64,000 nt of DNA from Luteibacter flocculans (lineage in GTDB: Bacteria; Pseudomonadota; Gammaproteobacteria; Xanthomonadales; Rhodanobacteraceae), in contig NZ_CP063231.1 of assembly GCF_023612255.1 (NCBI RefSeq), forward strand, positions 788,001 through 852,000, given 5' to 3'. How positions within the stretch are numbered: position 1 is the first letter of the stretch; each line of letters starts with the position of its first letter. The notes beneath the pieces were generated by a model. The model worked only from the letters and a program-made list of their open reading frames with translations. It searched no databases and was not told the DNA's origin. The position numbers and the translations under genes were made by a program. This document shows, piece by piece, positions 37,338-39,142 of the stretch.

Positions 37338-39142
37338 GCCCAGCCCAACCGAAGCGTGTCACCTCGCGCGCTCATCCGGCCGACCCGTGTACCGTCGTGA
37401 TTTTCGGCGCTGCCGGCGACCTCACCAGTCGGTTGGTCGTCCCCGCGCTCTACAACATGCGCCGCACCGGCCTGCTGGCTGACAATTTTTCGGTCATTGG
37501 TTTCAACCACGGCAAGATGACCGACAACGCATGGCGCAAGAGCCTGCGTACCGCGCTCGAACGTTTCGTAGGCAACAGCGGCAGTCGCCTGGACGAGGAT
37601 GCCTGGGGCTGGCTAAGCAGCCAGATGACCTACCACGCGGGCGATTTCGACGATCTGTCCGCGTTCCAGAACCTGGCGGTGAAGCTGCGCGATGCGGAGC
37701 GCCGCCGCGGTACGAAGGGCAACGTGCTGTTCTATCTCGCCACGCCGGAGCGTTTCTTCGGCGACGTGATCGAGAAGCTGCGCGATGCCGACCTCGTCGA
37801 CGATGGCGGTCCCGATGGCGAGTTCTGGCGTCGCGTCATCATCGAAAAGCCCTTCGGTCATGACCTCGCTTCCGCGCACGCGTTGAACGAGCGCATTCTC
37901 AAGGTGCTGCGCGAGGACCAGATCTTCCGCATCGACCACTTCCTCGGGAAGGAGACGGTGCAGAACATCATGGCGTTCCGCTTCGCCAATGGCCTGTTCG
38001 AGCCGATCTGGAACCGCGACCGTATCGACCACGTGCAGATCACCGTGGCCGAGACCGTGGGCGTGGAACGCCGCGGCTCGTTCTACGAACAGACCGGCGC
38101 GTTGCGCGATATGGTGCCCAATCATCTGTTCCAGCTGCTGGCCATGGTCGCCATGGAGCCGCCGAGTTCCTTCGACGCCGAAGCCGTGCGTACGCGCAAG
38201 GCGGAAGCCATCGAAGCCATCCGTCCGATCCAGCCCGAGGACGCGGTGCGCGGCCAGTACGGCCCGGGTGCAGTCAACGGCGAACTGGCGATCTCCTACC
38301 GCGACGAACCCAACGTCGCGCCGGATTCGGTCACCGAGACCTTCGTGGCAATGAAGCTCTCCATCGATACGTGGCGCTGGTCCGGTGTGCCGTTCTATCT
38401 GCGCACCGGCAAGCATATGGGCCGGCGCACTACGGAAATCGCGATCCGCTTCAAGTCGGCGCCGTTCGCCCCGTTCCGCGGCACCGGCATGGATGCGTTC
38501 GGTCCCGATTGGCTGGTGTTGCAGATCCAGCCCGACGAGGGCATTTCGTTGCAGTTCGACGTGAAGCGCCCGGGTCCGCGCGTGGAACTGGCGCCAGTGC
38601 GGATGGATTTCAAATACGCCGACTGGTTCCGCGCCGAGCCCAACGTGGGCTACGAAACGCTGCTCTACGATTGCATGACCGGTGACGCCACGCTGTTCCA
38701 GCGTGCGGACATGGTCGAAGCCTGCTGGCGTGCCGTGCAGCCGATCCTTGACGATTGGGCGCAGCGAACCCCGGCGGACTTCCCGAACTACGCCTCGGGC
38801 AGTGCAGGCCCCGCCTCGGCGGACACGCTCCTGGCCTTGGGTGGGCGTTCGTGGCGTCCGCTGAATTCGTCGAGCGAGCCACTGGCGCGCAAGTCGTCGC
38901 GCAGCAAGGCCGAGGTCGCACCGGCGTCCGTCGGCACCGCGCCCAAGAAGCGTGCATCTGCGAAGAAGGCCGCGGCATCGAAGAAGGCGACTGCGCCGCG
39001 CAAGACGGCATCGCGTCGCGCCACGGGAGCGAAGACCGCCGCGGCGAAAACCGCCTCGGCCCGTAAGGTGGCACCCGCGAAAGCCACGACGAAGAAGACG
39101 GCTGCCCGTCGCAAGCCCGTCGGTCGTCCGCGTTCCAAGTAA
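37334..39142 (+). CDS. zwf: Glucose-6-phosphate dehydrogenase with histone-H1-like tail
   Basis: 602 residues. The first 510 are a normal G6PDH: dinucleotide loop GAAGDLTSR (25-33), IIEKPFGHD, and the active-site RIDHFLGKE (about 199-207). The domain's usual end GRSWRPL lies near residue 510. A 92-residue tail follows (38864-39142), with 28 Lys/Arg and only two acidic residues, built of [17 protein letters not shown] blocks like histone H1 or AlgP, and ending in [11 protein letters not shown], an AT-hook-like core. Such a tail is not normal for Zwf and suggests DNA or polyanion binding. Start is the ATG at 37334, overlapping the GH15 stop. A terminator follows 20 bases later. Confidence 0.95.

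Follow-up and report, generated by a model that had tools for sequence, protein, structure and literature searches.

A polybasic, histone H1-like tail on a glucose-6-phosphate dehydrogenase isozyme of Luteibacter flocculans and related Xanthomonadales: a candidate electrostatic tether

The window, a stretch of 64,000 nt from the Luteibacter flocculans genome (4.30 Mb in one contig), carries a zwf gene for a glucose-6-phosphate dehydrogenase (G6PD), referred to below as isozyme 2 or zwf2. The features of the locus are as follows.

35481..37337, + strand: GH15-family gene, trehalase-like (ORF; Pfam TREH_N and Glyco_hydro_15)
37334..39142, + strand: zwf2, gene for G6PD isozyme 2 (602 aa with its tail; ORF; TIGR00871; Pfam)
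37334..38863, + strand: complete G6PD core, residues 1-510 (Pfam; 9emm; AlphaFold2)
38864..39139, + strand: polybasic H1-like tail, predicted to be disordered, residues 511-602 (composition; conserved charge; AlphaFold2)
39140-39142, + strand: zwf stop codon
39158..39195, + strand: hairpin, probable intrinsic terminator after zwf (fold; z-score -5.8)

The zwf ORF (37334-39142) is a single open frame of 602 aa. Its product belongs to the G6PD family by the NCBIfam equivalog TIGR00871 (584.1 bits against a cut-off of 400.6); Pfam places G6PD_N at residues 22-211 and G6PD_C at 213-508, and the last residue of the best-matching solved chain, 9emm, aligns with residue 510. The motif RIDHFLGKE is intact, with R199, D201, H202, G205 and K206 invariant in a 26-sequence alignment; which residues of this segment are catalytic is our assumption. 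Judged by its sequence, the core of isozyme 2 is an intact G6PD, predicted to be active. The closest named matches in a core search were Luteibacter proteins, with identity up to 96%.

The 92 residues that follow the core (511-602) include 28 Lys/Arg and 2 Asp/Glu. AlphaFold2, run with the 26-sequence alignment, gave pLDDT <50 over residues 512-602 with no helix or strand there, and the tail is predicted to be disordered. An earlier note made from the DNA letters had described a tail of this length past the normal G6PD end at about residue 510, with the same counts of basic and acidic residues, in one continuous frame and of histone H1/AlgP-like composition behind a complete enzyme. Each of these points was borne out: Pfam, 9emm and AlphaFold2 agree on the boundary, the frame is open throughout, and the tail has the marks of an H1/AlgP-like sequence (Lys/Ala-rich, few acidic or hydrophobic residues, predicted disorder, conserved charge). 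An ordinary Zwf has the same complete core but ends near residue 510. The tail falls short of the Pfam HC2 family (PF07382): taken alone it gave a weak match (16.4 bits, E 0.01; gathering cut-off 40), and the whole isozyme 2 protein had no HC2 match up to E 1.

Three zwf genes are present in the genome, and the window copy alone has a basic tail. Zwf1 extends 5 residues beyond the matched core. In the present assembly, the frame of Zwf3 (L142, G000:C1:2219136-2220010, - strand) is broken close to the C-terminus; the sequence beyond the break is therefore an out-of-frame reading and gives no comparable tail. Third zwf genes in relatives were matched with no frame break listed.

The 3′ end of the GH15 gene overlaps the zwf start codon, so the two genes probably form one operon. 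Matches of the NCBIfam trehalase models to the GH15 gene were below their cut-offs. On the other side of zwf, the hairpin at 39158-39195 starts 16 bases past the stop codon, has a T-rich 3′ arm and folds with a minimum free energy of -35.1 kcal/mol, shuffled sequences averaging -19.4 kcal/mol. This strong hairpin is the probable counterpart of the terminator that the earlier note had placed shortly after zwf; it was absent from the output of a simple consensus terminator scan. Convergent with zwf lies a gene (39206-41038, - strand) for a DUF3300 protein of 610 aa, whose C-terminal half is long, low-complexity and Pro/Ala/Arg-rich.

Some zwf match was found by the core search in 108 of 117 genomes of the family; the search also gave 80 named loci. 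A close orthologue (E 1e-150 or better) was present in 23 of 250 genomes of the order, and all 23 were tailed. The Zwf alignment across relatives, proposed in the earlier note as a way to map the tail, located it in a single clade. In a tree of 108 cores (a quick tree with SH-aLRT support only, L019 and L113 having been dropped beforehand), all 37 rows of this clade have a basic tail, as opposed to none of the 71 others, and the branch dividing the two sets has an SH-aLRT value of 100. The 37 rows are not independent, as they include two pairs with identical cores and 17 come from Luteibacter or its genus group. Within Rhodanobacteraceae, tailed rows come from Luteibacter and its genus group and from three other genomes (G006, G011 and G034); the remainder come from Xanthomonas and relatives, Pseudoxanthomonas, Coralloluteibacterium and [Pseudomonas] boreopolis. 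The 71 untailed rows have 0-28 residues past the core, in no case a basic tail.

Absence of the tail from close relatives had been named beforehand as a sign of a frame error or sequencing artefact. Nothing was found in favour of such an error, and we reject it as next to impossible because the orthologues carry basic tails, in frame and open in 37 rows (including the two pairs with identical cores) from many assemblies. As a single branch separates all tailed rows from the others, one gain of the tail fits, on the trehalase-linked G6PD isozyme in Xanthomonadales, as far as the core tree can tell.

The GH15 gene lies directly upstream of zwf in 35 of the 37 tailed loci, the misses being L016 and L054 (871 bases of upstream sequence examined for the latter). 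Among 68 untailed loci, with flanks of ≤3 kb, six had a GH15 match, which was upstream in one. An untailed orthologue from another genome of the family (L017, G021) has the gene order zwf-GH15, with GH15 downstream; it groups with alphaproteobacterial rows and was perhaps acquired separately. Five relatives showed open frames of 1,213-1,229 codons suggestive of a GH15-zwf gene fusion. This candidate was discarded: the upstream part reads out of frame, and each of the five has a separate start for zwf.

The 37 tails are 27-157 aa long (median 95), with 25-37% Lys+Arg, 0-10% Asp+Glu and net charges of +9 to +43; the net charge of six cores examined was -10 to +3. The shortest tails have 27 aa (L065) and 34 aa (L040), the tail of L015 is 10% acidic, and the 37 tails have no fixed repeat. 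In 12 hand-picked near-neighbour pairs (1,091 aligned codons; L007 and L127 each used twice), tail dN/dS was 0.11-0.52 (pooled 0.32) and core dN/dS 0.00-0.10. Among 341 amino acid differences in these tails, 230 were neutral-neutral, 72 basic-neutral, 22 basic-basic, 11 acidic-neutral, 5 acidic-acidic and a single one basic-acidic. None was the single-transition Lys-Glu change, and Ala-Thr pairs, which likewise require a first-position change of this kind, numbered 52. When neutral evolution was simulated at 0.5-0.75 substitutions per site, the net charge per residue fell to a mean of 0.09-0.13; the observed median is higher, about 0.27 (0.279 as the threshold of the comparison, 0.274 as printed). 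Given the fast sequence turnover, the rarity of basic-acidic swaps and the loss of charge under neutral simulation, the charge is maintained while the sequence is free to vary; on these comparisons the tail is retained for charge, not for sequence.

The earlier note had also read the C-terminal end as AT-hook-like, which would make the tail a sequence-directed binder of AT-rich DNA. The L. flocculans tail does end in a basic motif containing GRP, but the AT-hook consensus is PRGRP, with Arg before Gly, and here Val precedes GRP. Moreover, GRP occurs in 1 of the 37 clade tails, so that no conserved GRP core within PRGRP exists. We regard an AT-hook as very improbable.

Another explanation dispenses with a specific partner: the tail could be low-complexity sequence that arose through repeats and is tolerated, or could serve solubility or stability in general, the genomes concerned being prone to Ala/Lys repeats. 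Its wide range of lengths, its fast turnover and the 71 relatives that do without it would all agree with this. Still, we consider it unlikely, as the charge is kept far beyond neutral expectation, the tail was lost in none of the 37 clade rows, and the genome has few such stretches, most of them on DNA-acting proteins, as described below.

A protein search for copies of the tail elsewhere in the genome gave only weak matches (E 1.4 and above, with internal stops); therefore, censuses with DNA patterns were used. A narrow pattern, applied to the whole genome, had 93 matches at 25 places against 60 matches in a backward control. Since this excess is modest, the classification of carriers rests on translating each place; all 25 were scanned, the one near 2077677 with a stricter 60-residue criterion only. 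Eight of the 25 proved to be Ala/Lys-rich stretches in recognised genes, namely those for LigD, two HC2-like proteins, DksA, MetJ, an exonuclease-III-like enzyme (Pfam match Exo_endo_phos, which we take to be of type III), TopA and zwf2. The other places were ordinary basic proteins (presumably ribosomal, for example), proteins with no Ala/Lys-rich stretch or non-gene frames. A wider pattern gave 601 places, the first 100 of which were listed. Two more carriers were found outside the narrow pattern: Ku and a beta-lactamase-family serine hydrolase, a neighbour of MetJ.

In this non-exhaustive set of ten carriers, with domains confirmed by Pfam, eight act on DNA or transcription; the exceptions are the serine hydrolase and zwf2, the sole central-metabolism enzyme. 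The census under-samples Lys written as AAA and Arg-rich tails. A strict basic-stretch criterion, applied to 464 kb of the genome (20 stretches, two of them picked for Lys clusters), selected six ORFs. Four were Ala/Lys-rich stretches in recognised genes (zwf isozyme 2, an HC2-like protein, Ku and TopA); of the other two, one was a large ORF whose basic stretch is ordinary and one an ORF of 87 codons.

Similar carriers were read in two other genomes of the tailed clade, where the tallies are illustrative only because the places were chosen for letters reading as Lys-Ala blocks. In G011, 8 of 24 places were read, among the matches listed (100 of 110), and seven had a carrier: Ku, DksA, TopA, MetJ, the serine hydrolase, an HC2-like protein and two H1-like proteins with no Pfam match were seen. 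G263 groups with Xanthomonas; of its 19 places 10 were read and nine had a carrier, in addition to zwf2. These carriers were Ku, UvrA, an HU-family protein, TopA, Lon, a Thx-like ribosomal protein, a sub-threshold HC2 protein and two H1-like proteins with no Pfam match. Together, these sequences suggest that Ala/Lys-rich tails mark mostly DNA-acting proteins in these genomes, and an unexpected carrier is therefore a lead to an unexpected location. Lon, the Thx-like protein and the serine hydrolase contradict a strict DNA-only rule.

Tails of this type are known from other proteins. According to the respective papers, lysine repeats of TopA lower its dissociation from DNA and give processivity (PMC7398561), Ku has an extended C-terminus capable of binding supercoiled DNA (PMC8656161), and HupB cannot associate with the nucleoid unless it has its tail (PMC5676037). 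Actinobacterial TopA and bacterial Ku resemble zwf2 in that a complete catalytic or core domain is followed by a Lys-rich tail of variable length and poor conservation (PMC7398561, PMC8656161), and mycobacterial HupB in its H1/H5-like tail with PAKK/KAAK motifs (PMC5676037). The KPAA domains of Pseudomonas AlgP and PhaF (PMC9239181) are likewise disordered, Lys/Ala-rich, C-terminal and likened to histone H1. There are also differences: AlgP and PhaF belong to granules or the nucleoid and have regular KPAA repeats, whereas zwf2 is a metabolic enzyme with no fixed repeat; TopA and Ku already act on DNA; the HupB core is itself also nucleoid-associated. We know of no DNA substrate of G6PD. Among the matches listed, no description of an H1-like tail on a G6PD was found in the open-licence literature. 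Thus, the type of tail is known already, and its fixation on a G6PD is unexpected and, not having been met in that literature, apparently new.

We somewhat favour the reading that the tail is a sequence-nonspecific electrostatic tether to polyanions, most likely holding the G6PD isozyme on nucleoid DNA. The tether is favoured by the position of the tail behind a complete enzyme, its predicted disorder, its single-clade distribution and its conserved charge, and by the reports that similar tails retain TopA, Ku and HupB on DNA; the nucleoid is the likeliest target because most of the ten carriers of this genome are DNA- or transcription-acting proteins. In this mechanism, a flexible polycationic tail of the H1/AlgP type would hold zwf2 on the nucleoid through charge alone. 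Known G6PDs are dimers or tetramers; several tails per oligomer would therefore act jointly, with a gain in avidity. NADPH would then be produced by the intact core close to the chromosome, whereas the two other zwf genes in the genome lack such a tail. We infer the binding, the location and the benefit of local NADPH. Counted against the tether are the 71 relatives that do without a tail, the short tails of L065 and L040, the acidic residues of L015, the HC2 score far below its cut-off and the existence of non-DNA carriers.

The same charge could instead bind polyphosphate or RNA, recruiting the enzyme to polyphosphate granules or ribosomes. Conservation of charge alone fits any polyanion, and PMC9239181 reports that Pseudomonas AlgP, with its similar tail, localises to polyphosphate granules, that its C-terminus is required for granule spacing, and that granules of Ralstonia eutropha co-localise with polyphosphate kinases whose isoelectric points are basic. 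The same paper reports that peptides derived from the AlgP C-terminus bind DNA. The preponderance of DNA- and transcription-acting carriers in the genome speaks against polyphosphate or RNA as the target, as does the lack of a polyphosphate enzyme among the carriers found in the non-exhaustive census, and we think this alternative rather unlikely, though worth keeping in mind.

If the tail is a nucleoid tether, the isozyme might be a nucleoid-resident source of NADPH fed by the trehalase-like gene of the operon, placing reducing power beside DNA and the repair machinery, e.g. during recovery from drying or starvation; we offer this role tentatively. The repair-related carriers of similar stretches in the genome are Ku, LigD, the exonuclease-III-like enzyme and TopA. 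The only lead that we met on a benefit of NADPH near DNA is the title of a reference, Ayene et al., which reportedly bears on this point. Were the tether confirmed, a step of central metabolism would be physically attached to the chromosome (or to polyphosphate or RNA) in a bacterium, the clade would offer a natural series of tether lengths from 27 to 157 residues, and it would become testable whether an NADPH source close to DNA is of consequence for a bacterium.

MetJ, the methionine repressor, has a long H1-like Ala/Lys-rich C-terminal tail in L. flocculans (L156:2584-3222, - strand) and in G011 (L188:1984-2529, - strand), and the serine hydrolase encoded close to metJ has a basic Ala/Lys-rich tail in both (L156:3-1127 and L188:2-565, + strand). 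DksA has a long Ala/Lys/Pro-rich N-terminal extension in the same two genomes (L167:119-1201 and L186:1605-2900, - strand). In L. flocculans, an H1-like stretch forms an internal linker between domains of LigD (L152:797-3427, - strand) and a C-terminal tail on the exonuclease-III-like enzyme (L157:2429-3517, - strand).
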